From: Polytrichum commune
Lineage: Eukaryota; Streptophyta; Polytrichopsida; Polytrichales; Polytrichaceae
Direction: 5' to 3'
DNA: 64,000 nt
Assembly: GCA_950295325.1 (NCBI GenBank)
Contig: OX485803.1
Coordinates: 69,581,554-69,645,553, forward strand
Shown: piece by piece, positions 10,380-63,876 of the stretch
Layout of the letters: each line of letters starts with the position of its first letter
Position numbering within the stretch: the stretch's first letter is position 1
The notes under the pieces: generated by a model
The model's database searches: none
Seen by the model: only the letters and a program-made list of their open reading frames with translations
Told to the model about the DNA's origin: nothing
Translations under genes and position numbers: made by a program

Positions 10380-12332
10380 ACTCTCCTCCAACGGTTACCT
10401 GGACATCGATCCGCTGGTATTTTTCTCACTTGCTCTCACCAGTTTTCTGTATTTAGTCAGTCATGGTAACAAATCTTAACCTTGAGCGACGAATTGCTTC
10501 AGAATTTTGTTGCCTAGATGAGAGTCAACCTATAGCCTATGCAGTAGTGTTATGTGGCTTGAACTGTTCTAAGGAATTTCTTGGCTATTGGACTAACAGA
10601 GATTAGAAATGCTACCAACGGACTCTCCTGCGATGACATTTGCACAGCGTTTTGCTCGTAAATGACTCACCTTCCTTTACCAAGCTCTTGCGATTAAGCA
10701 GTCTCTGCCCATATTTTTAGCTTGAGTGACGACTTGTGATAGCCCTGTTGACCCGACGAGGAGAAAATGGTGCTATTTCTAGTTAACATAGAGTCGAGTT
10801 GATCTTTGCCTGAGCACGGATCATGAAACTACGTGTCAAACCTCTGGCACGCACTCAATTTACTGTTGTATGTGCTCCGATTCTCGTAAGATGAAATGCG
10901 TAGATTAGTGATAACGAGAGTATAGCACTTCGTGGCTCAATGGTTCTACAATAGTTAGAAACGCCTCTCTTAAGAACCTGCAAATTCGATATGTTCGTAA
11001 TTTTCTCACATGAGCTCACAAGAGTCTCTACCTTGACCAGAATTGTGTTAACCAGCTGAGGAGTTGAGTGCACAATACTTTCGAGGTTAGAATACAATTG
11101 GTACGATGAAGATTGAGGTCAAGTTCATGCAAGATCCAGAGTCCTGTGCTGATTCGTTGCACTTTAGTTTTCTAGGGTAATGGAAATAAATCGTTGGAGT
11201 GAGAGTACGTAGAATATGGATCGACTGAACCTGGAACTTGGAATTGCAATCCTGCTCGTAACTCCCTCATGCCACCCCACCAGCTTTCTGTGTTTCCGCA
11301 ATCCTCGTATTAAGGAATTTTAGACGAATTGTGCCAGAATTAAATCATAGAAAAGAGTCCATTGCTGATGACGAAAATGGCGAATCATTTTGACAGAAGT
11401 CAGAAACAGGGAAAACCTCTCTTCCGACGAGCACCTTTTAATCGATTTGCTCGCAATCTCTTTAGAGCTACTTGTAAGTAGACTGTCTCGCAAAGAATTT
11501 GAAGTTTAATTGAAGAACTTTGTTGACTGGATGTTAGACAAGGTGAGCACAAGATTGGAGCTCAAAACTTACCAAATCTGGTTGTATTTTTTTTCTCTAA
11601 CGTGTCCTCGAGCTTTATGTGATCATACAGTCACTGCGACAAGGATTGAGTTGACTCGATGAAACTTTGAAGTTTTTTATTCGAGGTCAGATGAGGTCAA
11701 CACAGAACCGGTGGTAAAGAACTGGCGATCCGGGAAATGCTCCACATAGCTGTGACGTTCTGTCAACCTGTGTATATAATGATAACGAGAGAGAGAGAGC
11801 ACGTAAAAGATGGCTTGGCGTAGGTTGAAATTGGAAAGTGTGGATTGTCAGGTTATGACAATCTTGGACACAATCGCGCAAATCATGTCTTCTACTTGCC
11901 ACCGTGCCGGGTAGAGCGCGAGATTTTTTCAATTTAGTATAGTTGTATCTAGCAAGATTTCACTCGGTCATTCCAAGTAAGGTTTAGAGTCTGTAGTACT
12001 TCCTACTAGATAATCACAGCTATCCCTCACATTCGACACATTTTGCTAGAGCCTTCAAGAACATTACAGCTGCAGAGAAATTAAATGCTGTTCCTTCAAT
12101 GATTCCTTCCGCCTACGCTGTTATGCAGACGGGTCACATATGAGTCGCAGAGTGTGAGACGATCCAATCCACAAGACGTCAGGAATTAACATACTAGATT
12201 GTGGTAACCATGTCAATTTGCAGAACGCGTGAGCCTATGTATGCCTGTGAAATGTTCACATGAGTTTTACCTTACCAACATCTTTCTTGTAATGCACAGG
12301 ATTAAGGGGGCTCCTCAAGAGCATTGGATGTC
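10380..12332 (+). promoter_or_regulatory. AOX upstream region or leader with diverged tandem repeats
   Basis: No coding exon was recognised between the repeats to the left and the AOX start. Several blocks recur at irregular 160-340 bp spacing. Examples are 'ttgctcgtaa...ctca' near 10653, 10990, 11252 and 11438, and 'gaattgtg(cc)agaatt' and 'gttgactngatga' phrases in between. They suggest an old tandem array, parallel to the clearer arrays in other genes here. This is where a promoter and 5' UTR, possibly with an intron, would lie; no TATA box or transcription start can be fixed by eye. Confidence 0.4.
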
Positions 12333-16343: not shown

Positions 16344-17995
16344 TCAATTGAGAATCTCAGGTGGCATGTATCCAAGCAAGCGACGTCCTGCAGGTGGTAT
16401 GTACGCAAGCAAGCGTCGTCCTCCAGGTGCAGTAGCGGGCGTTGAAGACCCACTGTGGCAGACGAAACCGCGGCAGATGGACAGCCAGATGATAATAATG
16501 ATCACAATAATGATTGCAAGAACAATGAGCTTCACTTTCATGTTTTGGAACCACATCTTGCGCCGGAGCTTTCCTCCTGTACGTTGGAAATTGTCAGCCT
16601 GCGCAGATTAAACTCAGTTAGCCTCTATGGGAAGGTATTCCAATGACAAGAACCCATGCCAACCCTGTGGGAAAAAGAAAGCCTAGATCACTAGAACAGC
16701 ATCTAATTATAGATCAATGAAGTCACTACATGCTACTGTACCTGAAATCGCAGAGTTTCTGTCTTGTCAACCAAAAGCTCAATCTGCTCTCCTCGATCAA
16801 GAACCTGCACGAGTTGAAAAAAAGAAGGCACACTAATATCAGCATCAAATGGAACCAAATATGCCAACAAAAAAAAAGTAACTCAATATGCGCTCATAAC
16901 TTCACAACCAAAACCCCAAGGATGCTCAGTAGCGTTCACAGAGTTCGCTCCCGGATAACTCTAATCTACACTGTACAAGAGCGAACTCTACCATAACCCC
17001 AAGGACACAATACATGCGCAATCGAGTCAAACAGCCACAATATGCAACACCGATTTCTGAGTATTAGAGTATACTCCACATCAGTAGAAAATCCGATACC
17101 TTCTCAATGTTGTCCATCATGATACCCTTCACTTCTGCCACTTGAGACTTTATTTTGGAGATCTTGTTCATTTCCTCAGGGTGATCAACACAATACTGCA
17201 TATGCTCCTTAAGCTTGGGTCTGCGCACCAAAAAATTTACTCATTATCAAAATCCACGCTCGTTTGAGCACCTTAATACCAGGCAGAACAGACATTAAAA
17301 GTAGAACGTCTAAACTAAAGAAGAAACAACTTGCTTTATAAGGTCGAACAAGATATATATAAGCTCTTACCCAAAATCTTTGTCTAAGCTGTGTGCCGAG
17401 GCCAGGTCAGCCTTTCCACCCGCATACCGCTTCTTAAAATCCTCCTTCACGCGTTCCAAAAAGGCAAAGATGATTTCTCTTCCAAACTCTTCATCAGCCA
17501 CAACCAAATATGCTGAAATTCAAAAAAACCAACAAAAATTAGTACACCATATTCTCCTGACGACTATTTGTACTTAGATGCACACCTGAATCAATGTCCG
17601 TGGATGCACATAACTGGCCGCCGTGTCCAATCAATGTAACAACATTGGCGGTAGGTCGAGGACAGTGACAAACTCAAGATGCACCTGAATTACAGAGAGA
17701 AACTGATATCTGCAGATACACCCTGGTATCCAGGGCATGTCCTGTCAGTACGTACGGACCCAATGGGTTGGGATCAACATTAAGTAGAAGGCTAAGGAAT
17801 CTTACTGAATCCCTCCTCAACGAGGTAGTTGAATGTATGTCGGTCACACGTATACGTGAACTTGTTGTTATTGGCTGGAAGCTTCTGCAGACACTGCACC
17901 GCAATAGTGCTGAAGTTTCCAGAAAATGCTGTGTACTCAGCGAGCACCATGGTGCCCCTGGCAACAAAGCTGTATATCAGCGCTTGCGACCCCAT
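16344..17995 (-). CDS. VAMP72: VAMP72-family R-SNARE, paralogue A (5 exons, 256 aa)
   Basis: Minus-strand exons are 17995-17806, 17512-17371, 17220-17100, 16804-16742 and 16598-16344. The first four have exactly the lengths (190, 142, 121 and 63 bp) and phases of paralogue B. VAMP72 proteins are plant longin R-SNAREs that pair with Qabc syntaxins to drive exocytic and cell-plate vesicle fusion. An N-terminal longin domain (about residues 1-115, starting [14 protein letters not shown]) precedes the SNARE motif (about 123-185) with the zero-layer arginine in [12 protein letters not shown] membrane anchor (about 196-213, [19 protein letters not shown]) follows. Family members usually stop soon after the anchor; this one has a roughly 40-residue extra lumenal/extracellular tail in which [11 protein letters not shown] is followed by [10 protein letters not shown]. 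The start is fixed by similarity to B and to the family [14 protein letters not shown] opening. Confidence 0.95.
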
Positions 17996-19990
17996 CTCAG
18001 ACCCTTTGATCTCTTCTCCAATGAACCTGGTATGTTCAAATTTCTTGGGCTACCCTGGAAGCAGGCCACACAAGAATATCAGCAATATGAAAATAAAATA
18101 TGTAAACTATAGGAGCCACCTCGCACATCAATTGTGATGTCCGCACAACCTTTGCTTAAACAAAGATTATCAGACACAAAGACGAATCACACGCAACGTC
18201 GAGACTCTGGTTTCAGATCTTCAAACAAGTGGGTTGCAAGAATGAGTTGAACAGACTTTTGAGATCCCATGATACAAAAATGCAAATTCCGGTCTGGCAC
18301 CACCCAAAACTACCCGGTTACAATGAAGCAAGTCGAAACCTTTCCGCTGAAGGTGAGGTAGCTCTAATCCAGGTTAAACCTATCTTATAAGAGCTTCAAT
18401 TTTAGCCTCAAGTAATTTTAGCACCATCCAGATCCTTCAAGTTCCTAGCCAGTTTACGCCAATAGCTCGCCCATTGCGCCTTCACGGGTACCTAACTAGA
18501 GCATGCAGGTGAGAACAAGAATCCAACACAATGCGAAGGCTGCCACACATTTTCTGTCTCCCAAAGTTTCATACCGCCTCCGATCTACATCTCTTTGAGA
18601 TCTTCCAACTACATACGTAAGAATAAACAATCCTTTGGCAATCCCTACAGAGATGTACTGTGACGGTAAGCCATTTCTGATCCTATACACACTCCACCGA
18701 GCCTTTCCATTACCTGCCGACATCTAACGCGCCTTACCTCCTCTTTCCGATTAATGCGGAGGTTATCGAAAACGAACTCACGATTACGTCGATCTCTTGT
18801 AGGTTATCTGACATCGATAGATCTATCAGGAAACTCGATGAAATGAATCGACGACCCCAACCGACTACCGAGGAACCTCCCTTTCCAACGAGCGGCAGAT
18901 TCGCTGAACACTGGTTAAAACCTCTCTTCTTAATGCCCCTGAGCTTCCCCAAAGTGCACACACCATGCACAACCAAACGAACGGGTCCGCCTGCCCGCCA
19001 ACTTCAGAAAACCCTAGAAGGGTGTATAGACCCTATAAAGACGGTCGAATCACCTCCGACGCCTCACATTCCCTTCCAACTGTCCTCTCTAACTCGCATG
19101 CAGCCGCGGACTTCACCACAACCAGATCGGATCCATGAAACCCTCACTCACTCATACCGCAAATCGTACCCGCATTTGTCCCACAAAACACACGAACTAC
19201 AGGGAGCAGAACACCGATGTGAAGGCCACCTCCAAACCCTGAAACCCTCAAGATCCTGCTCCTAAACACCAACAGCAACCCCAAATCACCTCACACAATG
19301 CTCACCCTAAACCACAACAAAAACAGACTACTCCGATACCACCGCCTCCGAACTCCGAAACCCTCACGAGCTCAATATCAAAAAACATCGATCTGCCTCC
19401 ACGTCACACCACACCACACCAAACCCAATCACCTCCATTTACCACAAGAACAAAGAAACAAACGAAAAGACGAACACAGACATACCGACGCGGAGAAGAG
19501 TGCCTCACCTGAAACCCTGAAGAGCTCGAGATCCAGCTCTTAGAGATCGATCCAGCGCCACATCACAACAAGTGACGTGAGCCGAAGATCGTTGGAAGCG
19601 CGGCGGAGGAACGGACGTGGATTCGAGAAGGGGAGCAATGCATGTGGAGAGGAGAGGACGGGAACTGATGGTTGAACTATCGAGCTCGGTGGCTTCGTGA
19701 CAAGACGCGAGGAAGAGATCACGGCCGGGGTGCCTTCAGTGAGGGAGATGGAGGTTGGACCTGTGGCCGACTGGGGAAGAAGGTCCCGTAGCCGCGGAAG
19801 AGTGGCCGGTGACCGTGGGGCTACTTCTAGGGGTGGCGTTCCCGCCGCGGAGGGTTTCAATTTGGCACCGTTGGGAGTGGGCCTGGCAACGGCCACTTGA
19901 ATGATGACATTGAACTTGGTTTGTGGGTCTAGGGTTTGTTGGTTTGTTGATTGTCCGAGTGCATTAAAATGGTGGGGAATATGAACTTCC
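17996..19990 (-). promoter_or_regulatory. VAMP72-A leader intron, 5' UTR and promoter region
   Basis: Upstream of the VAMP72-A start, 18840-19990 is clearly GC-richer than its surroundings. A good donor on the minus strand (CAGGGTTTCAG|GTGAGG, exon end at 19509) resembles the donor upstream of VAMP72-B (CAGGGTTTGAAG|GTAAGC, exon end at 32797). I infer a non-coding first exon above 19509 and a leader intron down to near the start codon. Three related phrases (gaaaccctNaagagctcNagatc) occur at about 19240-19260, 19358-19380 and 19511-19545. A 150-codon open stretch at 19540-19992 lacks an N-terminal ATG and is judged non-coding. Confidence 0.45.
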
Positions 19991-20029
19991 AACTCGGAGG
20001 CATAAGCTCGTACTTTTCCTTATAACATG

Positions 20030-20790
20030 GGCCAATTAACACTAAGAGATTGAGGGCCCTTGACCCGTGTTATAAAAAATAGGTGATTGGTCGAGAAGCC
20101 GGAGACGGTCCAAGTACAATTAATACTAGACTTTGAAGGCTTGAGGGACCGAAGAAATTCGACTTTGTGGAAATCCTACATGGCATCTTGTATGGCACGG
20201 AGTAGATGATATCAAGTTCTAACTTGGAGGCATAAGTTGGTTTTTTTTTTTTTTTTTTGTCCTTATGTTAAGGGTCATTTTACACTGGAGCTTGAGGGCC
20301 CTTGACCTGTGATATGAAAATTATGTGATTGGTCGAGAAGCTAGAGACGGTCCAAGTTCACATTACACTAGACGTTGAGAACTTGAGGGATTAAAGACAC
20401 TTTGACTGGATAGAAAAACTATATGGCACCAAATGGATAATGTATCAAGATCTACTAGATACATATTGCATTAAGTCCATCAAAAAAAGGCGGGTCTAAC
20501 GCAAAACTAAGGGTCATGTGCCATTGGCTCATGGAAATTTTATTTTTATGATGGTGTCCTAGACTGCCTACTAATTTGGATTTGTCCATAATATATGTTG
20601 TGGTCCCTCACCATGGTCCGCTTTCACTTTACAATGAGTTGAAGGCCCATCAATTGCAAAAATGGATCTCCATTTCCCATGATACAACTTTTGAATGGTT
20701 CAAGGGCCATTAGATTTTCATGGTCACGCCTCTTGGTATGTGTGTAAAGCGGTCGTCTAACGTTATTGTCCTCTAGGACATGACCACAAA
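20030..20790 (-). repeat. R2 repeats, two tandem diverged copies plus fragment
   Basis: Two direct copies of about 230 bp start near 20035 and 20275, each with 'ttgagggcccttgacc', 'tgattggtcgagaag' and 'gagacggtccaagt'. They are the reverse complement of the R2 blocks at 4740-5330 and 26030-27400. A further degraded piece (cctcaccatggtccg...ttcaagggccat) lies at 20600-20740. Confidence 0.65.
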
Positions 20791-32610: not shown

Positions 32611-32797
32611 GCCATAGCCGGGCCAAAGGTCTTGTTCTCCGTGACCCTTATTAGTCGCCATCTCTTGCTGCTTGCGTGCCTCGCCCGGAATCCACACCTG
32701 CATCGCCAGCGACGGCTGTCCATTCCACGCGTTTTGATGTACCTCTTTTGCGGATCCGCCCGCTGTAGCCGGATTGCGAGCTTTCCAGGGTTTGAAG
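32420..32797 (+). promoter_or_regulatory. Probable promoter and non-coding first exon of VAMP72-B
   Basis: A GC-rich island in AT-rich DNA ends at a strong donor, CAGGGTTTGAAG|GTAAGC (exon end 32797). This matches the donor context upstream of VAMP72-A. Open frames here on both strands lack introns, domains and good starts. I infer the 5' UTR exon of VAMP72-B; the cap site cannot be located by eye. Confidence 0.4.
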
Positions 32798-32830
32798 GTA
32801 AGCTCTCGTCAATCGTTGGCACCTCTCGCT

Positions 32831-34065
32831 TGTAAGTATGCCCGCAGTGCTGGCAATTGGTTTTATCGTTCGTTAGAATTTTCGGAATTATGTCGCCCTG
32901 CAGTGCGTGATATAGTGCACAAATTTTTCATGGAGACGGATTGTTGCTTTTCCTGAGAATTGCGCTGCAGTTTAATATGCTGGAAGCCTCCAGTTTTCTA
33001 AGTTCGTGCCTCTGAGGCAATTTGTCTAACCTTTTCTTTACCCTAGGGATGTTGAGAGCTGAAATATGAGATTCTTCTTAATTTCCAAGAGCCTCTTAAT
33101 CAAGATCGTTCACTGAATTCCAGTTTTGTTTCTGAGTTTCAACTTGAGAGCTGAACCTTGTATGCCCGCAGTGCTTGCAACAAAATTTTCTTGTGAATTG
33201 GTGGCGGTTTCTCGCTCTGCAGTGCTTGAAATAGTGTAGAAGTTGTGCATGGAGATGGATTGTTGCATTTCCTGATAATTGTGCTGCAGGTTAATATGCT
33301 TGGGAGCCTCCAGCTTCCAACGTTAATTTGGTCTAACCTTTTCTTTACCCTAGGGATCTTGAGAGATCAAAGAATTGATCCTTCTTATTGTCCACTGAGC
33401 CTCTTAACCAAGCCTGTTCAAGGAATTCAGCTTCTCTTTCTGAGCTTTCAACTTGAGAGCTCAACCTTTTTATGTTTGAATTGGTGGCCGTTTCTCGCTC
33501 TGTAGTGCGTACCCAGTGCGTGCTATAGTGTAGAAGTTGCGCATGGACATGAATTGTTCAATTCTGCGCTGCAGTTTAATATGCTCGGAGCCTTCGGCTT
33601 CTAAGGTTGTGCCTCCGAGGCAATTGGTCTAGCCTTTTCTTCACCCTAGGGATCTTGAGAGCTAAATAATGATCCTTCTCATTGTCCACTGAGTCTCTTA
33701 ATCAAGCTTGTTCAATGAACTCCGCTTTTCTTTCTGAGATTCCAACTTGAGAGCTCAACCTTTTGTCGTTTGAATTGGTGGCTGTTTCTCGCTCTGTAGT
33801 GCGTGCCATAGTGTAGAAATTGTGCATGGAGATGGATTGTTAAATTTTCCTGAGAATTGCACTGCAGTTTAATCCCTGTTTAATATGCTCAAACCCTCCA
33901 GCTTCCAAGGTCGTGCCTCCGAGGCGATTGGTCTAACCTTTTCTTCACCCTAGGGAACTTGAGAGATAACCGATCCTTCTCAATGTCCACTGAGCCTCTT
34001 AATCAAGCTTGTTTAATAAATTTCACTTTTCTTTCTAAGCTTTCGACTTGGGAGCTCAATCTTGT
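32831..34065 (+). repeat. Four tandem ~295-330 bp units upstream of VAMP72-B
   Basis: Four direct units (about 32831-33158, 33159-33467, 33468-33762 and 33763-34065) share 'gtttctcgctctg(c/t)agtgc', 'atagtgtagaagttg', 'gctgcagtttaatatgct', 'accctagggatcttgagag' and 'caacttgagagctcaacctt'. They lie between the probable leader donor at 32797 and the coding start at 34933, so they would be inside the 5' UTR intron. The later units resemble each other more than they resemble the first, which fits stepwise duplication. Confidence 0.85.
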
Positions 34066-34165
34066 TACATGTGGGACTTTTAACAAGCTCTTGGTCCAAA
34101 TCCTAAGCTACCTTGTTAGTTTAAAAAATTAGTTCAGTGTAGATTAGGTTGTTAAGAAAGTGAAC

Positions 34166-34651: not shown

Positions 34652-34932
34652 TTTAAGGGACTTGTTTTACGTAATTGTTGTGTTATGGATAGTCAAAGAG
34701 AGACGTCTTGTATGCTTTAGAAGGACGGTGATGGAATAACCATTTGACTTTGATCTATGTAATCTTAGTGCTACAACGTCTAAACCTTAAAACGTGGATG
34801 CAGGAAAAGACAACTCTTTCATGACTTTCTGTGAAGTTGACAAAAAGGTGGAGAACAGCAAGAAACTGCAAATTTGAGGGGGAATCGACGGTGATCAAAT
34901 AGGTCTTTTGAGGAGGGCCTAAAGGTTTGAAG

Positions 34933-42100: not shown

Positions 42101-44385
42101 TGTCTCATGTCTAATGTAATAAGAAGTGAAGTTTTGAGGAAATAGATACCAAAGATCACAGTGTACAAACCTTTCAAGTATTTCTTCATTAGGGAAGGAC
42201 CGGACGAGTCGCATGGCATTACTGCAACCGATACCCACAACTCCCTTTCGGTCATAATCACATCCAACCAAGAGGGCTAGAGCTATCATGTGTTGTCTTT
42301 GTAAGCCCAATGTGGTCTCGATGTCCTCAGCTGTGTAGATCTCAACAAGTGGGTCCTGTTTTTGAGCAAAAATACACATGTTCAAAAGGATCCGTTCCTC
42401 TCTCCAATGTTGCCAACGCTATTGCTACTCCATATGTAGAAGTGACGTCATGAATAAATGTAGCAATCTTCCTTCTGACAGTTATTTACGAAGTATTTAG
42501 TGGTGTCTAAATAGCCTGGTTCATATACAGTATAATCAATTGCACCACAGATAGCCCATTCCAGTCTACTAATGTACAGTCTTGTATTTCCGCTGGTCAG
42601 ATTTTGCATGCACAAGGGCCTACAAACTATTCTAGGTTTGAACTATAGAATACGTACAGACTTAAATTGCGAAATTACATGCCCCAAGCTAATTCTCAAA
42701 GGACATTGCTGCTCATCAGTATCAACAGATGACTGATATATTTGCACATTGCACCATTCGCAGCAATGAACAATTGAGAAGTTCAGCGACAATGCCGGTG
42801 CACAAGTGGACAGTACCTTTCATAAGTAGTGCATTTCCTTTTATGAAGCAAGTATAAAATGATAAAAATGCAATATCAAATGTCGAAGCATGCACCTTAG
42901 CATCCAGTTGGAGAACTTTGATTACACATTTGGCACCATGCAAGAAAGCATCACTGTCTGGGGTCACACATGCGTCCACCCAGCCTTCTTGATTGAGCTC
43001 TGCACATAAGCCTTCTGCTTCCCATTTTGCTCGCAAGACAGGCATTCCCAGCAGCTCCAGAAGCTCCTGATAAATCACAAATCTGTCACATGATGTCTGA
43101 TATTTTACATTGTTGCATACAAGGACAGAACAGAAGGCAGTGCAGTGCTCCTTCTCATTCGACAAAAGAAAAGAAAAACCCAACACACATTAGTTCTGCT
43201 CTTTTCTTAGAATAGGTTTTTAGATTAGGTCACGTGCGATACAAGTATGGGAAAAAGAAAACTGGTGCAATTTTCAGTGCGGCATGAAGGTAACTGAGCA
43301 CCCACCACACATTCGTCTATACTTTGTTGAAATGCACTGTTTCGGGCAATGTCTGGCTCATCTGCAGAGATGTCCACTTGAGAAAATGGCAAAGAAATGG
43401 GGGGATTAAACATCCGGCCGAACCTCTCCATGCGTACTCCGAGCTTCTCTGGAGGAGGGTTGCCATCGACAACGAACACTGGCAATGCCCCACCCTGCAA
43501 CCCAAACATAACGATGAGCACATTTGCAATACACACAGGCCATTCTACAATACCCCATGCTATGTTGCAAGAAATAGGTTTTAAGCACACCCTTGACCAC
43601 CAAAAGTGTCATCGTCTATTAAATTTCTTTCTCCACATGTGGTGGAGGACTGTGCACCCAGTAATCCTTCAATAACTTACAAACAAAATCCAGTTCAGAA
43701 AGCACATCGCCACCCTGCAACCCTCATGTAATGCTGAGCACATTTGCAACACACACGGCCATTCTCAAATACCCCATGCTGTATTGCAAGACATAGGTTT
43801 TGAACCAATCCTTGATCACCATGAGTGCCATCTTCTATCAAACGTCTTTCTTTCTGTACATATGGTGGAGGATTGCTTACCCAGTAATCCTTCGATACAC
43901 TTACAAAAGATCCGGTTCAGAAAGTACTTGGCCACCCTGAAACTCAAACGTAATTCTGACCACATTGCAACACGCACAGGACATTCTAACACAAACCCAT
44001 GTTCTGTTGCAAGAAATAGGGTTTGAAGAAAATCCTAGACCACCATGAGTGTCATCGTCTACCAAGTTCTTCTTTCTGCACATGTGGTGGAGGACTGTGC
44101 ACCCGAATAATCCTTCAACAAGCTTACAAACAATCCTGTTCAGAAACTACATTGATTTGCAGAGCCATTGCAGGAGCAAAAGTAGCGTACCCTAGAAATG
44201 AGATTGACGATGCGAAAGAAGAGAATGCGGAGGTGAGGCTTGCGAGCAAGGGTTCCAACAGCCGACTGTTGCTGCACAATCCAGTATGACAAGTCGATTG
44301 CCACCCGCTTTCCTTGCAACCACTCAAGCCCCTTGTCTTGCTTCACTGGCTCTAGCTCATCCCAAAACCCTCCTCCGACCCCCAT
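39114..44385 (-). CDS. GEN1: GEN1-like XPG/Rad2-family structure-specific nuclease (8 exons, 685 aa)
   Basis: Minus-strand exons are 44385-44191, 43494-43306, 43066-42896, 42355-42171, 41951-41627, 41274-41139, 40482-39923 and 39410-39114. All are GT-AG and in frame. GEN1/SEND1 enzymes cut Holliday junctions and flaps during DNA repair in the nucleus. The N terminus MGVGGGFWDELEP must be free for activity. XPG-N acids D31 (RVAIDLSYWI) and D75 (PVFVVDGNPP) and XPG-I acids E144, E146, D165 and D167 (VTPDSDAFL) are present. D218 and D220 (LLVGCDYDRKGVVGIG) open the helix-hairpin region. A Cys-rich module (HCSNCGHPG ... CLCMACAK) follows, then a region with the family LRW-type core, and a basic tail with a PIP-box match QLSIKSFF (613-620). 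One oddity is WEAEG at 143-147, where the family has GEAEA. Intron 1 consists largely of a tandem array. Confidence 0.93.
43492..44158 (-). repeat. Three tandem ~220-bp units in GEN1-like intron 1
   Basis: Units at about 43492-43711, 43712-43932 and 43933-44158 share (plus strand) 'caccctgcaaccc', 'ccccatgctntnttgcaaga', 'ataggttttnaancaancct' and 'acatgtggtggagga'. The unit begins with the exon 2 acceptor itself (minus-strand GGTTGCAG|GGTGG), so similar acceptor sequences recur in the next units and could act as decoy 3' splice sites. The array fills most of the 696-bp intron. Confidence 0.9.
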
Positions 44386-46673
44386 CCTATCCTTGGGTTC
44401 CCCAAACCCTCCACTAATTTTTCTGCTGCAAGAAAAATATCAAAGTAAACCCCACCATGTCACCGACATGGATGCATGAATTGGACACTCAAGCTGAAAA
44501 GATAAACAGATGAAGTATTGTAACTCCACAGCATCAATCAATAGTGTTCGGAAACCTTGCCGCAATGTTCCGACATATGAAGTCACAGCAACGCTGACCC
44601 CTCATTAAAGCGATTATCAAGGTCGCCTGTAAAATTTTGCGATTACTTAGTACTTTGAGACGTTAAAGTAGAAATCTTAAATTTTGATTCACGGCTGTTT
44701 GTGCTTTTGTTATCGTGCTAGTAGCAACTGGCAGGTTCCGATGCTGACGATGCTTTCTTTGCATGGTGTGAGGTACAGTCGAAGACCCACAAAATTTATT
44801 ATGGTGCTCATACTACTTAACATAACCCAGAATTCGCCGTCGGAAGAGAAAGGAAAAAAGAGAAATACTTCGGGAGGAGAAAGAAGTTCTTCATACACTC
44901 TTTGTTGAAGAACTTAGCAAGAAACATCAACACCGTAAGAGCTGATGATGATGACCTTGCAACATGCACCAAGAGGAAGGATTTGCTTAGAAGCGACCCC
45001 AGCTGAATGATGCTCTCGGTAACTACTGTTCAGCCATTGTTTTTTGTGAAGTTGACCAGATTCTCATATCGGTCCGGTTGTTTCTTTCCAATCCTTAACC
45101 CCATTGAACAGTTCAACGTGCACAGACTTATGATGAAGTTAACTCACTTATTAGAGAAAACAAAACTTGCTTCCGACTAACTAACACTCAACTCATAGAG
45201 GAAAGCATTGATGATTCACGGCTGTTTTTGACTGTGGTCAGTTATGTCTTTCCAATCCTTAAACCCATTGAACATTTCAATGTGCACAGACTTATGAAGT
45301 TAACTCACTTATTAGAGAAAACATAAACTGCCAACTAACACTTGACGAAGAGAGGAAAGCATTGATTCACGGCGGTTTGTGACCATGGTCTATTATTTCT
45401 TTCCAATCCTTAACCCCATTGAACGGCTCAACGTGCACGGACTTATAAAGGTAACTCGCTTATTAGAGAAAATATAAGCATCCGAGTAACTCTTAATGAC
45501 TCAGAGAGAAAAGTTTTGATGATTCACGTCTGTTTGTGACTACGGTTGCGTAACTGGCTTCTCCTTTGCATGGTATGGATTACAGCGAACGACCCAAAAT
45601 TTATGCTACTCCCACTAACATGCACCGCCTTTTTCTTGCTTTTTCGGAAGCAAAAAAGACCGAGGAAGCAGAAGAGAAGGGAAAGAAAAGAAGAAGAAGC
45701 GAGTTCCTAAAGAAAAGCATGCAGACTTTTTGTTATTCAAGCAACACTAAGCTTAAGTTGTGTCCGGTTTTGCAATCTTATTAAGCAAGAAACACCACCC
45801 TAAGTGCTGATGATGACGATGACCTTGGAGTCTGCACCAAAGCTTGATGCTCGGTAACTACTGTTCAGAGACCGTTCAAGTTTTTTCTGATCAGTTTGTC
45901 GCATTGGTCCGTTGTTTTCTTGCAATCCGGTCCTCAACAACCCCGTTGAACATTTCAACACTTATAAAGTTTGAATACTCACTTATTAGAGAGACAAAGC
46001 TTCTGACTGCGTCACCATTACGTCTACTTAACCCATGAAAGTATCTCTCTGCATATAAGCGCTCATGCATATAAGTTAACTACTCGCTGATAAAGAGGTA
46101 TGAGCCGCATAACCGAGTCTTGATACATCAAGACTGTCTGATTAATGGAGCAACATCAAACATCATCGCCACACAAACATCAGCAAAAGAGTCGTCCGGA
46201 AAGCATGTAAATATTGCGGTTGCAGCGTGACCCAATTTTTTTCCAGGCTTTCAGGTAATCTTACTCCAGGTGATACGTCTCGATCACGTTGCTTCCTCGT
46301 TTCAAACGGAATCCTATGTCATGGCAGGTTACAAATACAACCCACGACCGTATCTACCAAGGCATCAATACTGCCACCGCATAGGTATACACACCTGCGG
46401 TGAAAACTAGGGTTAACCTGCTTTTCATGGTAGCATACTTTACTCCCCCGAAAAACGTGGCGCCACGTACTACCATATCATTTATAGGTAGACGTCATCA
46501 TACTAGGTCCAGGGGGCACATGCCACATAATAATCTTCAATCTTGTAGATTTTGAGGCTTGAACCCTTGAGTGCGTTGAAGTTGAGGTATTGTCATCCGA
46601 AGCTCTGTGAACAGAGCTAAGTAGCAAATTGTGTACAGATTTTTGTATACTTACTTCTTGTTGGTTGAGTGCA
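44386..46673. repeat. Intergenic region with nested direct duplications (about 44690-45790)
   Basis: Two levels of duplication are visible. A block at about 44690-44960 (ttcacggctgtttgtg..., gcatggtgtgaggtacag, cccacaaaatttat, gaagagaaagg) recurs at about 45515-45830. Between them, three units of about 150-165 bp (about 45065-45235, 45236-45380 and 45381-45535) share 'tttctttccaatccttaacc', 'cattgaacanttcaacgtg', 'actcacttattagagaaaa' and 'gattcacggctgttt'. The region is the shared upstream space of the divergent GEN1-like and lumen-protein genes, so promoters lie here, but no motif can be fixed. Confidence 0.8.
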
Positions 46674-49600
46674 ATGGCCACCGTGGTCATGGCCAGCATT
46701 CCCCTACTTATCCGACCTCGGTGGCTCTGTAGCTGCACTACAACAACAACTTCAGCAAGATTGGACCATGGAATTGTGCAAGCAAGCCAGAATTATCAGG
46801 TTTCACTCGGAGAGGATGATGCTTGTGTATCTGCATATGAGTCACAAGGAAATGTTGGAGTTCGTGTCGGCAGGCGAGATGCCCTGGCTGCATCCGCAGT
46901 GACAGCAGCCATGTTCTTCTTTTCTGTCGAGGATTCAGAAGGTCATTCAATACACTTGAACCTCAATTGGCATTAGTATCCAGATAATTGGCATTTGTGT
47001 CCAGATTATGGAGCATGCTCGGCTTCTCCATCTCAAGCCCTGAACATGGTATTGCTATTCATTACTTTCACCACTCCAAATTCGAATCAATCCACAAATT
47101 TATGTACGAAGAATGAGTACTACATTGGGCGACAAGGAGTGCTATTCGAACTCACGCTGAGCTTGAATTACAAGTGTGGAATTTTTGTCTCTTCAGGTTG
47201 TTCGGTTGTTATCCACTTTGTCACGAAGTGGTTAATATGTCCAAGAGGTCCCAAGTGAACCCTAAACCCTAATCGGTATTATGTATGAAGAATGAGTACG
47301 ACATTGGTATACACGGAGTTCCTGCTATTCGAACTGCTCATATCGAGTCTGATCAACAAGGATTGAATTTTTTGTCACTTCAATTTGTGCGTTTCTTATC
47401 CGAAGTTGATAATATCTCCAGAGGTCAGAAGTGAACCCTAAACCCCTATCAAAATTATGTATGAAGAATGAGTACTACATTGGTCGACACGGGATTGTTT
47501 GTTCATTTGTAATAGTTCCTGCAGTTCGAACTGCTCATCTCGACCATGAATAACAAGGATTGAATCTCTAGGTCTCTTCAATCTGTGCGGTTCTTATCCA
47601 CTGCGTTACAAGGTGGATACTATCGCTCGCCCTAAACCCTAAATCCTTCTCGTCGGCATTTTTTGTTCAACTCCTGGTCTTACTGAGTTGTATTTTCATA
47701 GGAATTCTGTCTCTGTATCATGAAACCGTATCTGAGGCTAATTTACTGTCATCGAACTACAATTTGAAAGTTTTCTGTGATGTGTACTCCAGCTTTTAGC
47801 TCTTTGCAACATACCAAAGCTATGCTTTAAAGGGTCGAGTTGCACTTGGAACATGTACATCTTTGACTGTGCATGGAGAGATGGGGATTTCATTGGATTC
47901 TCTTTTCTAAATGTTAGTTGGCAGCTCATGCAAATGTATAACATATACCGTATGTACACACGTTGTTCTTGTATTTGTGGTGTTCCTCTATGGCATCAGG
48001 AGATTGCATCTGACATGTAGTTGAGGACTAAGGAAACCAAGATTGGAAAGGTTTATTTATTCTTAAAAAAATGTTGTGATTGTGCTTTATACATCACATA
48101 CTGTGGTCTAGGCATACCTTATAATTTCGTTCAAGATTTTAAAGAGTCATGTTCTACTGTAAGGGGTTCACGAGATTGTTAGATGTTAGTGACATCTTAT
48201 TTTGCTGACCCTGCTAGTAGTGTGGTGTGCTTGCAGCAGCGGAATCAGGAGGATTTTTGAGCAAGTACTTAAAGAGGTGGGTCCTTGCAAACATGTGATC
48301 TTGTTAACTATCACCTGTGTAAATTTGCCATGTAGTGGACAGAGTGGTCTCAGCTGGGGGGATGATGATTTCAAGTTTGACACAAAGACACTCTTGGACA
48401 CAACCTTGCTCTCATGATTTTCAGCAAAAGTAGTAATAACAAAAAATATGTTGAAAGACTGTGTCCTTGCACTTGGAAAGGTCCCTCTTCTAAATATCTT
48501 GAACAGAGATACTTGTGAATGGAAGCACATACTTGCACATGACATGTGCAACCTGTCAGAGAATAATGACTGTTCAGGGGTTGATGTTGAATACTGTGTT
48601 GAATATGTTGTCCAATTTATGTGTTCTGGAGGTCATATCTGAGACTTACTGGGAGGTTATCTGTGCCTTGGAAGCAGAAAGAAGCTTGACCCACTGGATA
48701 CTTATGTACCAACCGTGGTGTTAGCACAACTCCAGTTCCAGGATGCCGGTACATTCTCATCACTGAAACAGTAATATGTGTGGAACTTCATAAACTTTGG
48801 GATCTACAGAAGTATTTGTGCATCTGTTCCTGTCTGGGAAAAGTTACGGTTTGTTTGCAAAGTACGTGTGCAAATTTTCACTGGCACTTTGTTACGGACC
48901 CTAAATGAGATCACCTTTTTGCTTTTCTACATGATCATAGTTATTTGGTCACCAGTGGCACATTATTTAATGTATTCTTGATATACATATCTTGATATAT
49001 ACATATTGATATACTTGACAAACTTGACAAACTTGACAAACTTGAGTTGCACTGATTGCATGGGGCTCATCTGTCTATTTTAACCCAAACACATGTCACA
49101 CAATTCTTTGATTACTATTGTATGTGAGACTCCTTGGAGTTCACAGACTCTTTATTTTCACAATAATGAGTTGAGAAGCCGCTAACATGCAAAGCACTGA
49201 CAGGTTGTATAATGTGGTCAGCACAGGTGGAAAGCTAGTTGGAGAAAAACCTGAATTCGACAATGTGCGATCGCTTTTGCGATCTGGACCAGCAGGATCC
49301 CTTCGCACTGACATACGAGCAGTGAGCCTCACCACCTCCAGAATAGTCAACTTAGTCCTCTTTATACAGCTTTAAGCATGCAACCAAATTATAGTATCAA
49401 CAGCTGGATCCTTGTTTATGGGATTCTAGGCCAGTGGAATTGAACTGTTGTTGTTTTTTGGTTCATCTTCACTGTTGATGCATATTACTGCAAGAGTTTC
49501 CTCAAAAAAATTGATTGAGTTCTTGCCTATTATGTTTCTAAGGAATGGACATGTGTTCTTGCTGTAGGTAGCACAGTATGCATTAGAGGCTGGGGAAGGA

Positions 49601-52384: not shown

Positions 52385-54060
52385 GGAAGTTTTTGGGCAT
52401 AGTCAGTCAAGATCCTAGTGATTCCAAATCCAGCTGGTTACATGTTGACATCTTCCGGTTTTGCTTTCATTCATTTGAGGTATATTCCATAGATTCCTCT
52501 AAAATGATCAGTAATTTTCATGAATTCTCCAACTTCGATCGGTTATTTCTCAAACTCAACCGGTTCATCCATAACTAACCGCCTGTTCTTCCCGGACATA
52601 GACTATGTTCCTTGAATAGAAACCTTTGGAGATAGCCAACAATAACTATTGACACATCCCCAGCTTGCAGTTATTGTTGGGTTGGGAAGAGTCTAAGTAA
52701 ACTCCATCACCAAAACGTCTCAAATGACTGGAGCCAATTTCGGCCTATCGCTTGTCGACGTGTCACATTTTGATTGGTATTGAGAACGAGGTCCTGGACA
52801 CCATATCCTTCGACCTTCGTTTAATGAAGATATGCAAGGAGTTTTTCCAATCTTCTGGGAAGTTTTGTATTTGCACCTACCAGAATTTTTTGTACTTATC
52901 ATGTTGATAATGGCATTCACAAGCATCGAGACCATCATCAATGGTGGAGGGCCCCCTTTGAGATGTAGATTCAATTCGATGGCTCACAAAAGGTCAAAAT
53001 TGACTACGTAAGGTAGCTGATGGGATTCACCCAACTATCATCTTGGGAATTTGGGTCCCAAAAATGTTTCAGTTGGTAAGATTCTTAAGAGGGTAACTAG
53101 GCTCATCCCACCAGCTACCTAGTACTTGTACATTCTAGATGAGGAGCTTAAGCTATAGAGTAGATGAAGCACAAAGCGATTGGTGTTATGGTATCTTGAC
53201 ATGATGTGTGAAGAAACTACAAGTGCAATGTAGGTATGACTAAAGAGGCTTGGGTGAGAGGAAGATCATCAACTTATTTGACTTCCTTCTCTAAGGTTGG
53301 GTGGAGAGCATTTCTCAAATTTCTCTTGCTCTATCTAATTCTAACAAGTTAAGAGTTCAACTAGGATATTGATCGTTGTCTAGATTTTTTTCGCACCCAA
53401 GACAAAAAGTAGGATGTATGTTGATCATAAAAAAATTAATTAAATTAATTAAAAAATAAAAAATGCACTAGGTCATGCATACACAATGTGAATTTATTCG
53501 AGAAGGTTCTATTTTCATTTCAACACAGAAAACAATCTACAATCTGGTTTTATATGACTATTCATGTCTTGTATATAATTATTAGACCAATCATCAATGT
53601 CTTATCATGAATGCATCTTTTGAATATCAAGAGCAGCAACGTATGTAAGAGATTATAGGAAGCTAGGTTGAATTATTGAACAAGATAATTCAACATCTTG
53701 TTGAACAATTTTTTCATCACTCAACATATGACAAGGCCATGTAATAAAATTCGGATTAAATATTATATTGATGGAAGGTGATACCAACTTGTTTTTATTG
53801 TGGTGGGATGATTGCTGTGCTCGAGGATTTTGATTGTGGTTGGGAATCGAGGCCCCAGAGGGAATTAATCAGTGTCCTAGGAGATTTTCGGGCCTAATCA
53901 GCCTAGATCCTAGTGTTTCCAATTCCAACTGGTTACATGTTGGCATGTTTCGGTTTTTCTTTATTGATTTGAAGTAGAGTCCATAGATTCCTCTAAAATG
54001 ATGGGTAATTTTCCCAAAATCTTCAATTCAACCGGTTATTTCTCAAACTCATGCCCTGAT
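52385..54060 (-). repeat. R1 repeats, two copies about 1.5 kb apart
   Basis: Blocks at about 52385-52570 and 53872-54060 share 'gatcctagtgnttccaantc', 'ctggttacatgttg', 'atagattcctctaaaatgat' and 'ggttatttctcaaactca'. They are inverted relative to the R1 copies at 8318, 9012 and 9508. No gene lies between them; the direct pair could be the ends of one decayed element. Confidence 0.65.
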
Positions 54061-54408: not shown

Positions 54409-54410
<2 letters not shown>

Positions 54411-54465
<55 letters not shown>

Positions 54466-54476: not shown

Positions 54477-55261
54477 GCCCTCTACACTATGAATGTTGTT
54501 ATATTAATCAAGGGATCTTGAATCCAATTCTAGTGTAGAGTATCTCAGAAAAAGTAACCTCCAACCTACATATTATTACAAGATGTTTGTGTTGGAGAAA
54601 CAAGAGAGATTCTAAATGAAAAATAAATAAAATAATAAAAATCTCATGGAACGGATACATCTTATCTTGTAGGTGACATATATGTGCATATATGGGCAAT
54701 CGTAGGAATTAAACGTTGTTGTAAAATGCGTAATAATTGGAGTAGACTTCTCATGGGATGCATAAAATACATGTTAGCAATAGGCGACTTGAAGACTTTG
54801 AGTCTATATTTGCAGAGGGAGCTCAATAATGCAACCCAAAAAACAAAGAGCCAAAACATGATGATGATGATGATGTTGATGATAATGATGCTTTTCGGGA
54901 GATGGCATGGCATGGCATGAAGAGGCCTTGGACTCGGTTTTATTAGGTATGACTCGTTCTTCCATGCGTCCCTTGAAACTCTTCAACCCTCACTTTGATA
55001 CGGTTAAAGGAAAATGACAAAACAAGTGCCTCAACTTTCCTAGGGTGGCACCGCCCTAACGAGATGGGATTAAACAATGTGAATATACTACTAGGGTTGA
55101 TGGGTTTCCTATTCTATTTCATTGAAGTGGGATTTGACACAAAATCCAAGTCACAACCCATGCTGCCCGCACCCATGATTTTTTTTGGTATGGGAAGCAC
55201 TCAATGAGTACGATTGCAAGTAAGGGTAGGTTAGATGGGTTTTCAAACGGTCGCTTTTTTT

Positions 55262-55915
55262 TCCCGACTAGCTCACTTTTCTCCTAGAATACGAAACACA
55301 TGATTTGATTAGTACGAGATGGCTAGCAAGTCCAAATCAAGGCCATAGCCAATTTCCTCTTAATGTTTGGAGCTCATATGAGTATCTTATTCATTATCAA
55401 AGTGAAGGTTCACGTGCATATTAAATGGTCATATATATCCTGCCAATTTTGTTGACTATTGAGCCTAGAATGGTTATTTCTCCCAACTAGTCCACTTCTC
55501 TTAGGATACGAAACACATGATTAGTAGGAGATGGTTAGCAAATCCGAATCGAGCCCAAAGGCGACTTTCTCTTAATGTTTGGAGCTCACATGAATATCTT
55601 ATTCATTATTAAAGTGAAGGTTCACGTGCACATTAAATGGTCATATACACCTTGCCAATTATCTTGACTATTGAGTTTGTAATGGTTATTTTCTTTTCCA
55701 ACTAGCCCACTTTTCTAAGGATATGAAACACGCGATTAGTAGGAGATGGTTAGCAAATCTGAATCAAGGCCATAGCCAATCTCCTCTTAATGTTTGGAGC
55801 TCACATGAATATCTTATTCATTATCAAAGTGAAGGTTCATGTGTGCATCAGATGGTCATATACGCCCCACCAACTATGTTGACTATTGAACCTAGAATGA
55901 TTACCATCTTTTGAG
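55262..55915 (+). repeat. Three tandem ~218-bp units, intergenic
   Basis: Units at about 55262-55480, 55481-55698 and 55699-55915 share 'gatacgaaacacatgatt', 'agatggttagcaaatc', 'ctcttaatgtttggagctca', 'atcttattcattatcaaagt' and 'gaaggttcacgtgcacatta'. There is no gene in or near it. This is the only clean array of the set that is not next to or inside a recognised gene. Confidence 0.9.
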
Positions 55916-56449: not shown

Positions 56450-57170
56450 GGTTGAGTTCGAGGAATAACCGGTTGAAGTTCAAGACTTCATGAAAATTAC
56501 CCATCATTTTAGAGGAATCTAATGGAAAAATATTTCAAATTAATAAAGAAAAGTGAAAGATCACAATATGTAACCACTTGGACTTGGAAACACTAAATTT
56601 TTATCCGGGGAGATTTTTGAGCATAATTGGTTGAGATCCTAGTGTTTCCAAGTCCAACTAGTTATGTAGTATGATCTTTCGGTTTTTCTTTAATAATAAT
56701 AATAGGTATATTCTATAGAGTCCTCTAAAATGATCAATAATTTTCTTGAAGTCTTGAACTTCAACCAGTAATTCTCAATCTCAATTGGTTCATCTATAAC
56801 CACGTTAAAAAATCCTAACACTGTGGGTCACATTAACCTTCTAAAGCCCAAGGTAATTATCATGAGAATTAATGTGGGCCACATAAATTTCCAACCCACA
56901 CTATATTTCTAATAGAAAATTAGTGTGGATGATTAGTTAAATTCATGTTATATTGTCTCATAACTTATGTTCAACGTGTTGGTTAGACGTCTTCTTGAAG
57001 ACTTTGGGGAAGAGCTAGGATCTTGGACCCATGTTAATTCCACCTTGACTATAAAATTAGTGTAGCCCACACTAATTTTCCACCCATGGTAATAATAGGA
57101 CTATTTAGTGTAGTGGTCGGTCCTCCCCGTTCATTGTGACCGATTGTGTCCAAAAATCTCCCCGGACACT
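56450..57170. repeat. R1 inverted pair plus 'gtcttcttgaagac' module
   Basis: An R1 copy at about 56450-56612 is followed directly by an inverted R1 copy at about 56613-56790. They meet at 'ccggggagatttttgagc', so transcripts could fold into a hairpin with arms of roughly 160 bp. Then come inverted 'aaattagtgtgg' motifs and the module shared with 7985 and 26410, ending in another 'aaaaatctcccc' at 57155-57168. I read this as a composite foldback or non-autonomous DNA transposon. Confidence 0.6.
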
Positions 57171-59218: not shown

Positions 59219-59418
59219 TCCCAATCAATGTGTGTTATTTTTTGGAGTTATAGAATACTATAATTGTTTAATGAGAATGTACTAATGTACCGAGCAAAGT
59301 TATTTATGTTATATAATGTCTGAACAACCTTATTGAACTTTCTTTGGTAAAAAATGAACTCCTAAGTAAAATATTATTGCATCGCCTAACTCCAAATAAT
59401 AACACACACTAATTGGGA
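59219..59418. mobile_element. MITE, copy 2 (200 bp)
   Basis: The terminal repeats begin TCCCAATCAATGTGTG and, on the reverse of the right end, TCCCAATTAGTGTGTG. Both run to GGAGTTA. Internal phrases (tgncgaacaacctnttgaac, tattattgcatcgcctaac) match the copy at 23118-23316. The right flank is TA and the left flank TT, so one side of the target duplication has mutated. The insertion lies only about 70 bp upstream of the GC-rich leader of the GBPL gene. Confidence 0.8.
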
Positions 59419-59485
59419 TAATCATTGTAGTAAAGGCCCAAATTGGGCATTAAAAGTGTTTTAGGGGAAAGAAAGACAAAAGAAA

Positions 59486-61072: not shown

Positions 61073-63876
61073 ATGCTCATGATGAAGGTGGTCAACACTG
61101 GGACCTCAATTACGGCGAAAACAAGGATGAAAGAGAAGATGGATATGGAGGTAGAATCTTCAGCTGTTACTGTTGTCCACAGAACTCCACCTCCTGGTAA
61201 ACCTTACAATACTCGTGCGACAAGACTTAGTAGTCCTCCAGCACGGCCTATTCGTCTTGTATATTGCGATAAGAAAGGGAAGTTCCAAATGGACCCAGAA
61301 GCTGTGGCAGCTCTGCAGCTGGTGAAGGGACCTGTTGCTGTTGTTTCGGTATGTGGACGTGCTCGACAAGGGAAGAGTTTCATTCTCAATCAGGTCTGCG
61401 CAGTAACTACAATACCCTTCTTTCATTCCACATTTTGTAATCAATAATAAAAAAAATTGTGTTCTTTAAAAATTGAGTCATTCTGATGCTTTACAATGCT
61501 TGATATGTGTTTCTGTGATAAGAGTCTTCTTAAGAGCTGCATAATTGCTGAAATCTGTTTCTTATCAACATTTGTGAATATGATGGTTTTGCTACATGAT
61601 ACTTTGCTCAATACTCTTATCCTTCTTTCACTCCATATTCTGTAGTCCATAAGCAGTTTTGATGTTCTTAAAAAAAAACGAGTCATTTTTATGCTTGACA
61701 ATGCTTAAATATGTAATTCTGTGTTAAGAGTCTCCTTCAGACCTGCATATCGCTCACACTGTTTCTTATCGGTGTTCGTGGATACCATGTTTTTGCTCAT
61801 GAAAGTCTGCTCAGTACCTACATCCTTCTTCTTTCATTCCATATTTTGTAATTAATAAGCAGTTTTGATGTTCTTGGATACATGAGTCATTCTGATGATG
61901 CTTTACATTGTAATGGGGGTTGTACTTAACTGATTTAGTCAGGTCAGCTATGTGTTTCTGTGTAATGGCTGATTCTGTTTTCTTATCAATATCCGTGGAT
62001 ATGATGCTTTTGCTGCATGATTGATAGCTGCTGGGACACAGCAGCGGTTTCGAAGTTGCAGCCACCCACAAGCCTTGCACAAAAGGTCTATGGATGTGGA
62101 GCACACCCATTAAGCGCACAGCTGCTGATGGAAGTGAATACAATTTGTTGTTACTTGATAGTGAAGGCATCGATTCATACGACCAAACTGTAAGTCACCT
62201 GTGACATGCTTTTCTGCTTTCTTTTAACCTCTTCATCTTATATTTGCTCTAAGAGATCTTAATTACTTTACGCATCTCTTGGCTTACTTACTGTCATAAT
62301 TCTGTTCATTCATTCCATTTTTCTTACACTTGAGCAAGTCTCTCATGTACACTGTGCAGGGAACATACAGTATTCAAATCTTCACACTGGCAGTTCTCCT
62401 GTCAAGTATGTTTGTGTACAATCAGGTGAGTTTCCTTGCAAGGCTCCTGTAGTCAAGAGCCTAGAAAATGAAAGAAAGGAAAGAAAGAAATATGACTCTG
62501 ATGTTGCCACCGGTGTGAATTATGGTGTTGCTTGGTTATTGAGTTGGTCTAAGATTATATTTAATCCTGAAACTGGCGTTACGAGATATAGAGGACCCCA
62601 GGAGACTACTGCGTCCTTTCGAAGGTGAACACCTTGAATGGGCGCAGACAAGCTGGCCAGCACCTATCTCCAATCCCCAAGGGCGAGCCCCTAAGTTCCC
62701 AGTTTCCCACATGGTTGGTTGAAAATATGCGGTTCACCTGGATACCCCCACTATGCATAGGTGGTAGGGTGCACTGGAAATCAAGCGCTAGGAAGGTCAC
62801 CCATCCGAGTACTAATCCAGCCTTGAGCAGCTTAATATCAGAGTTCCCATGGGATCCGGGTTTAAGCAAGTCTTAGAAAAATGAAAATTTATCTCAGCTT
62901 GTCTTGTGAAAAGAGGTCTGAAGAAACTCTTCTTGGGGCATTAGGTCTGCTACCTCATCAAAATCGTACAATACAAAACGCTTCTAAGGTTTTATTAAGG
63001 AGGCAGATTCAACACACATACAAACTACTTTTGATACATACATATTAGACTAACGGTAAATTCTAAGTGTAGTGTTAGGTCACATTCTATGTTAAATTTA
63101 GTCCCTTCACAGAGATGATGGTCCTAGTAGGTGTGATGAAACCCACAAGGTGGATTGTTGTGACTGGCAGATGAATGGCATAGATGAAGCGGCATTGGAC
63201 AATCTATCTCTAGTAACAAAAATGACAAAGCATATTCGAGTTCGAGCATCCCAAGGTGCAACCTCAGCTGATGAGCTTGGCCAATTTGCTCCACTCTTCG
63301 TCTGGCTACTTCGGGTGCAGTACTTTTCTTACATTCAGTTGATTGCTTCTGGGTGGTGATAATGAACATCGTGTGAATAATAATATATGATGCATAAACT
63401 GGTATATATGTTGAATTTTCCAGAGCCATCAATATCAAACATATCTTTGATTATCTCCTACTTATGTGCAGGACTTCTACTTGGATCTCACTGAGGATGG
63501 ACAAAAAATCAGTCCCCGAGATTACCTTGAGTCTGCACTCCAACCACTTCCAGGGTCAGGAAGAGCCATTGCAGCCAAAAACGAGGTTCTCAATTTTCAC
63601 TATATCTTTGTTGTGGGTGGAGATTTGCTGCAAATTCAATGTAATTGTAACTTGAAATATCAACATTGTTAATGAGGAGGCGTGCTCTAGTTCTTCAAGG
63701 GTAGGGTTTTGGTGTGATCAATTGTTTGTTGTCGACATATAATTACTTACAGGAAGTGTTCTTGGAAAATCCAGATTCGAAATTCTATACGGGCGTTGTT
63801 CCCAGAACGTGAGTGCTTCACTTTAGTTCGTCCCCTCGAAGCAGAACACGAGTTGCAGCACCTGGATGAAATCCCG
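61073..63876 (+). CDS. Guanylate-binding-protein-like large GTPase (GBPL), N-terminal part, runs off the right edge
   Basis: Exons seen are 61073-61393, 62028-62189, 62360-62425, 63171-63314, 63472-63585 and 63775-63876, all phase 0 GT-AG, giving 303 residues so far. The GBP/atlastin-type GTP-binding domain begins RLVYCDKKGKFQMDPEAV. It has the P-loop GRARQGKS (95-102), THKPCTKGLWMWS with the switch I threonine region, and the switch II DSEG (151-154). GTYSIQIFTLAVLLSSMFVY, LGQFAPLFVWLLRDFYLDL and ECFTLVRPL follow. Plant GBPLs hydrolyse GTP, and some Arabidopsis members form defence-related nuclear condensates; whether this one does is unknown. An in-frame TGA at 61058 supports ATG 61073 as the start. 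The C-terminal helical half lies beyond the window. Confidence 0.93.
61394..62027 (+). repeat. GBPL intron 1 made of three tandem ~205-220 bp units
   Basis: The whole 634-bp intron reads as three direct copies starting near 61394, 61600 and 61805. Shared phrases are 'tctgcncagtacctac', 'cttctttcattccatatttt', 'gttttgatgttctt', 'gagtcattctgatgctttac', 'atatgtgtttctgtg', 'ctgtttcttatcaa' and 'gtggatatgatgnttttgct'. The first unit begins at the donor and the last ends at the acceptor TTGATAG, so almost no unique intron sequence remains. Confidence 0.9.
62767..62858 (-). pseudogene. 5S rRNA-derived sequence inside a GBPL intron
   Basis: On the minus strand, 62858 to 62767 matches plant 5S rRNA from about its position 28 to the 3' end. 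It carries CGGATCCCAT, ATTAAGCTGCT (internal A-box region), GGATTAGTACTCGGATGGG and GGGTGACC (C-box region), then a degenerate stem ending GTGCACCC. The first ~27 nt are unrecognisable. Unrelated sequence continues on the 3' side to about 62610. It is diverged and lies antisense in an intron, so it is not a functional rRNA gene. A 5S-derived SINE or a fragment or solo LTR of a Cassandra-type TRIM element are the likely origins. Confidence 0.75.

Follow-up and report, generated by a model that had tools for sequence, protein, structure and literature searches.

Locus-specific tandem arrays of three or four copies in predicted first introns and intergenic DNA of a 64-kb plant-like window

The stretch of DNA analysed here (the window) comprises 64 kb of plant-like eukaryotic nuclear DNA and contains six tandem arrays, each composed of three or four copies of a unit of 152-324 bp (Table 1). 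Four of the arrays were found in predicted first introns, and two were found in intergenic DNA at 45 kb (IG45) and 55 kb (IG55). The intronic arrays lie in a VAMP72-like gene (VAMP72-B), a GEN1-like gene, a lumen-protein-like gene (the LUM array) and a GBPL gene; a second VAMP72-like gene (VAMP72-A) and an AOX gene are also present. The names VAMP72, GBPL and 'lumen protein' are those of a preliminary description of the window. The GEN1-like gene contained XPG_N and XPG_I domains, and its best PDB match was 'Flap endonuclease GEN homolog 1'. PF02263 was matched in both exons of GBPL, whose structure-sequence match was Guanylate-binding protein 2. In the profile search of the window, AOX was identified by a match to PF01786 (E 8.9e-75), and the two VAMP72-like genes gave Longin matches of 25.8 and 27.1 bits against a cut-off of 26.2; the best structure-sequence match of VAMP72-B was Vesicle-associated membrane protein 7. 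Exon 1 of the lumen-protein-like gene had no convincing family match in the profile search. A DUF7880 match was located downstream of this exon (49175-49372), and we tentatively assign this stretch to the same gene.

Table 1. Tandem arrays and related repeats in the window
Feature	Positions	Strand	Copies	Location or relation
VAMP array	32836-34067	+	4 units (324, 316, 288, 304 bp)	predicted VAMP72-B leader intron, 5' end
GEN1 array	43490-44152	-	3 units (221, 222, 220 bp)	nearly all of GEN1-like intron 1
IG45 array	45077-45546	+	3 units (164, 152, 154 bp)	intergenic, with the divergent GEN1-like and lumen-protein genes on either side
Decayed fourth 45-kb unit copy	45912-46008	+		IG45 profile match, E 1.8e-8
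LUM array	47100-47640	+	3 units (179, 176, 186 bp)	predicted intron 1 of the lumen-protein-like gene
IG55 array	55255-55912	+	3 units (219, 215, 224 bp)	repeat-rich intergenic DNA
GBPL array	61394-62027	+	3 units (208, 203, 223 bp, re-phased)	whole GBPL intron 1, donor GT to acceptor AG
Decayed repeat	19130-19541	-	3 copies, perhaps 4, spacing ~112-166 bp	VAMP72-A leader
Two-copy 230-bp direct repeat	19979-20440		2 copies	member of a dispersed family, with others near 5.1, 26.8 and 27.3 kb

The arrays were sought with Tandem Repeats Finder (TRF) and by self-blastn of the window. The window was also scanned against itself at offsets of 80-600 bp with a gap of at most 150 bp between copies, and matches of at least 28 bits were listed; the best match in 12 dinucleotide shuffles of the window reached 24.7 bits. 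This self-scan revealed ten matches at or above 28 bits, six of which were the arrays (one match each, 173-658 bits). The others were a two-copy repeat (19979-20428, 129 bits), a match in the VAMP72-A leader (19226-19369, 29 bits) and a 41-bp minisatellite near 593-747, which took up two rows. The LUM array was missed by TRF and found by blastn. TRF, self-blastn and the self-scan together recovered five of the six arrays of the preliminary description, which had given 4 x ~310 bp for the VAMP72-B leader, 3 x ~220 bp for GEN1-like intron 1, 3 x ~185 bp for lumen-protein intron 1, 3 x ~210 bp for GBPL intron 1 and 3 x ~160 bp for the intergenic interval 45065-45535. The IG55 array and the decayed repeat in the VAMP72-A leader were absent from its list. 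Its remark that unit sizes lie near nucleosome multiples was not borne out, as the mean units (~157, 180, 211, 219, 221 and 308 bp) vary widely and showed no tight match by eye. The minisatellite (620-747) consisted of 3.1 copies with 94% matches, the top match rate among TRF rows with a period above 20 bp. A spaced pair (9025-9267 and 9511-9747) fell outside the gap limit of the self-scan, and further relatives of it were detected by self-blastn.

The units of each array are homologous, stand head to tail and are confined to their own locus within the window. When all 64 kb were searched with profiles built from the individual arrays, no array resembled another (best match on another array, E = 3.3). 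The only convincing copy outside its own array was the decayed fourth unit adjoining IG45, and the next best match was 20 bp long with an E value of 0.05. These searches agree with the earlier proposals that the units differ between genes and that the arrays are locus-specific and do not form one transposon family; they lend no support to a single family shared by all arrays. Within the window, none of the six arrays had the unlinked copies of a transposon or satellite family. Such copies do exist for the two-copy repeat at 20 kb, a member of a dispersed family, which was therefore set aside from the locus-specific arrays. Additionally, the segment 44757-45168 resembles 45564-46002 in pieces and forms with it a larger two-copy block, the second copy of which holds the decayed fourth unit; since this block includes the IG45 array, duplications are nested there.

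The anatomy of the intronic arrays revealed a close relationship to splice sites in two cases. In particular, GEN1-like intron 1 (43495-44190) is occupied by an array that starts 37-38 nt past the donor and extends 5 nt into exon 2; an acceptor copy (TTTCAG/GGTGG or TTGCAG/GGTGG) closes every unit. Only the last acceptor, with the exon start at 43494, is open through exon 2, and the frames that begin at the earlier copies (43936 and 43714) are closed by stops after 11 and 31 codons. A donor-like GTAAGT is present ~32-34 nt past the acceptor copy in units 2 and 3, so cryptic small exons are possible. In GBPL, units 1 and 3 start with GTCTGC, as does the donor, and unit 2 starts with CTTTGC; the joints between units match a position 5-7 nt ahead of the acceptor. 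The intron end that is present in single copy is thus the donor end in GEN1 and the acceptor end in GBPL, which fits selection against duplications that disturb the frame, sparing those that merely enlarge the intron. The simplest reading of both loci is one enlarged intron with spare splice-site copies inside it, and no new intron or exon was evident.

The other two intronic arrays lie within longer introns. The leader intron of VAMP72-B, predicted from splice signals, spans 32798-34803, upstream of the ATG at 34933, and the VAMP array begins 38 nt past its donor. Predicted intron 1 of the lumen-protein-like gene spans 46942-48238, and the LUM array begins 158 nt past its donor. The telo-box-like motif CCCTAAACCC was found near the 3' end of each LUM unit (47260-47269, 47436-47445 and 47630-47639). 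The first recognised GBPL coding stretch (61061) lies 5.1 kb beyond the IG55 array, and the tentative last lumen-protein exon lies 4.3 kb ahead of it. The array is situated between two oppositely oriented copies of a dispersed repeat (53911-54051 and 56453-56595) that are 83% identical in self-blastn. A palindromic dispersed repeat is present at 56452-56784, with self-blastn relatives near 8.2-9.7, 52.4-52.6 and 53.9-54.1 kb; oppositely oriented copies of it occur on the two sides of IG55, and its shape suggests a miniature inverted-repeat transposable element.

Across the arrays, the copies were 63-88% identical. Kimura two-parameter (K2P) distances between copies were 0.13-0.28 in five arrays; those of GBPL were 0.41-0.52, and re-phasing of its units gave Jukes-Cantor distances of 0.35-0.44. 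The branch-length, clustering, singleton and transition:transversion counts of GBPL refer to the first MAFFT alignment phase, in which the start of unit 2 is misphased. Equal branch lengths were not rejected in the five three-copy arrays (P 0.12-0.54), a test of low power, and variable sites were unclustered in the VAMP, GEN1, LUM and IG55 arrays (P 0.10-0.65). The decay of IG55 was rich in transitions, with a transition:transversion ratio of 41:9 compared with 141:143 in the other five arrays pooled (P 2e-5). Pairs of dispersed repeats fell between the two (233:156), differing from the five arrays at P 0.0095 and from IG55 at P 0.0019. Methylation in the 55-kb region may account for this pattern; the CpG counts of IG55 (4 of 18) are too small to judge it.

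The two VAMP72-like genes, VAMP72-A (16344-17995, minus strand) and VAMP72-B (34933-36617, plus strand), are divergently oriented and share an identical five-exon coding layout. They are 87% identical across 248 aligned codons and differ at 33 of 78 four-fold sites (K2P 0.63), and their introns gave no alignment in self-blastn at E < 1e-3. Since the K2P distances of five arrays lie below this four-fold-site value, these arrays would be younger than the gene pair if rates are similar. The leader of VAMP72-A also contains a repeat, built on a motif that resembles the end of the leader exon with its donor; its self-match scored 32, more than any of 100 local shuffles (best 30). The possible fourth copy (score 18, background 17) was no better than background. 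The leader-exon end of VAMP72-B (32767-32793) matches 19538-19512 in the VAMP72-A leader over 27 bp. This match scored 29, a value that none of 300 shuffles attained under either of two nulls (best 27), and it strengthens the prediction of a leader exon in VAMP72-A as well as in VAMP72-B. The other short matches listed between the two leaders were not credible, and this one alone stands. We regard the VAMP72-A leader as a fifth, weaker case of repetition at a gene 5' end. The VAMP72-B protein had no confirmed relatives in viral_contigs (4 pattern matches) or genome_contigs (25 pattern matches).

Upstream of AOX, where a decayed array had been described, no array of three or four units was found in 10000-12330. 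The best match there was 47 bp long (10397-11022, offset 579 bp) and scored 28.3 bits, above the best of 40 shuffles (26.5 bits), and the offset of a second match, of 24.7 bits, was close to this (594); an old duplication into two copies is therefore possible. Elsewhere in the window, a fragment of a hAT transposase C-terminal dimerisation domain was detected at 3609-4010 (PF05699, E 3.2e-7), and no tRNAs or Rfam families at gathering score were found.

An array was present in four of the six predicted first introns and in none of the 22 later introns (Fisher P 0.0007). When intron length was taken into account and each array was collapsed to one unit, the excess had a P value of 0.015, and the chance of at least four of six arrays falling in first introns was 0.0006. 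These tests are post hoc, concern six genes of one window with predicted introns, and treat the arrays as independent. In the underlying intron table, several exon edges of the GEN1, lumen-protein and AOX genes are approximate, the last AOX intron is omitted, the VAMP72-B leader intron lacks one base and the exons are assumed to add up to 6500 bp. In GBPL, a leader intron may exist upstream of the one counted as first, and AOX carried no array in its predicted first intron and none that was confirmed upstream. The preliminary description had suggested a general process near gene 5' ends. The distribution between first and later introns speaks for this suggestion, but the bias was tested post hoc, its length-corrected support is modest, and IG55 and AOX fit poorly; a process directed at 5' ends is therefore suggestive but unproven. 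A shallow literature search turned up no plant study describing such arrays as generally biased towards gene 5' ends, which is no evidence that such a bias is absent.

Taken together, these results make it fairly probable that the arrays arose independently of one another, each through an old and local tandem duplication of non-coding DNA that was amplified while young and then decayed. In such a scheme, error-prone repair of two nearby nicks or breaks would first duplicate a segment of 150-320 bp in tandem. Unequal exchange or slippage between copies that were still nearly identical may then have produced three or four of them, as suggested by the equal distances that were not rejected. The copies have since diverged by point changes and indels, and no clustering of conserved sites was detected in four of the six arrays. 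The arrays appear to persist where they are harmless, either within introns or between genes. The duplicated segment of GEN1 and that of GBPL each extend to a splice junction on one side and leave the opposite intron end single, so that one frame-preserving splice remains. The surplus in first introns may reflect their length and tolerance, and perhaps also more frequent breaks in the open chromatin of gene 5' ends. Vaughn and Bennetzen (2014) is cited in connection with the small tandem duplications of rice that arise from repair of adjacent nicks or breaks. In rice, tandem duplications are the commonest insertions and are attributed to repair of adjacent nicks (PMC7971508).

Several observations weigh against this scheme. 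All six arrays have three or four copies, and two-copy repeats in the window are either dispersed (9.0-9.7 and 20 kb) or form the 45-kb block. Independent duplication by itself should mostly yield two copies, and an amplification step must therefore be added. Unit 1 of the VAMP array is the most distant (K2P 0.23-0.24, compared with 0.15-0.18 among units 2-4), which indicates stepwise growth of this array. Variable sites were clustered in IG45 (P 0.008) and GBPL (P 0.004), and such clustering could mask constrained parts. The first-intron excess, at its length-corrected value, is not required by the model, and microhomology at the breakpoints was not established, as the copies are too diverged. 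Finally, the tandem share of rice insertions has fallen to ~5% by 200 bp (PMC7971508), so the units here are large for the mechanism proposed there.

A different origin, which we consider rather unlikely, is that break-prone gene 5' ends (open chromatin and breaks linked to meiosis or transcription) steer duplications to first introns and promoters, making first-intron growth a property of the genome. The contrast between first and later introns described above is what such breaks would predict, and the decayed repeat in the VAMP72-A leader points the same way. A review locates most of the recombination-initiation hotspots of plants in promoter DNA depleted of nucleosomes, although it also reports them to be frequent at gene 3' ends (PMC6299014). 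In mice lacking ATM, meiotic double cuts at adjacent hotspots led to deletions and tandem duplications, whereas cuts within one hotspot gave microdeletions, duplications arising only between adjacent hotspots (PMC12918824). Hotspot breaks at open 5' ends might be a source of the first-intron excess. Against this stand the small post hoc sample of predicted introns, the position of the 55-kb array more than 4 kb from recognised coding stretches and the AOX gene with its array-free first intron. A further reading holds that a process directed at 5' ends triples or quadruples leader segments or almost entire first introns in brief bursts, with splice junctions as the limits. First introns would then grow by intron-sized quanta and accumulate spare splice sites; we judge this reading decidedly unlikely.

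We also find it improbable that the units were kept for expression-enhancing elements of first introns and promoters, as might be envisaged from the 408-bp repeat of grape VvmybA1. The arrays do sit in a leader and in first introns, and CCCTAAACCC ends the LUM units. The sequence AAACCCTA occurs eight times in the window, three of them in arrays (two in LUM and one in GEN1) compared with 0.5 expected by length, although these counts are small. The enhancer motif TTNGATYTG was found in none of the arrays (0.3 expected), and CGATT was found four times (5.0 expected). Variable columns are unclustered in four of the six arrays, no element is common to the arrays, and their copies share no more than 63-88% identity. 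In grape, expression rises with copy number (PMC7464560).

Membership of the units in transposons or a satellite family with further copies outside the window is equally improbable, for although IG55 lies in repeat-rich DNA between opposite-orientation repeat copies and has decayed mainly by transitions, and although the two-copy repeat at 20 kb does represent a dispersed family, five of the six units have no second locus within 64 kb and the sixth has only an adjacent copy, no inverted pair closely brackets the other five arrays in self-blastn at E < 1e-3, and two arrays fit intron borders.

Independent local duplication followed by amplification and decay thus remains our preferred explanation, and the pattern is real and of a kind already known. 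If the first-intron excess were to hold genome-wide, it would represent a direct and countable mechanism of first-intron growth and would tie small tandem duplications to plant gene 5' ends; otherwise, the window is a worked example of old tandem duplications persisting where splicing hides them. The arrays resemble a known tandem duplication that spans a splice junction, in a system that has an extra 83-bp duplication in the first intron, and they differ from it in that no new intron or exon is evident here. As in the small tandem duplications of rice, the events are local, locus-specific, head to tail and not made by transposons, and exonic structural changes are purged faster than intronic ones (PMC7971508). 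Tandem events in rice are enriched at 50-200 bp, whereas the arrays here have units of 152-324 bp in three or four copies and are old (PMC7971508). The array of grape VvmybA1 is similar in being a low-copy array of a single gene with units of a few hundred bp near the coding start; it is a 408-bp promoter duplication present in two, three and five copies, for which a first duplication based on microhomology followed by slippage was proposed (PMC7464560). In contrast to the arrays in this window, which are diverged and mostly intronic, the grape copies are perfect, recent and expression-raising (PMC7464560).

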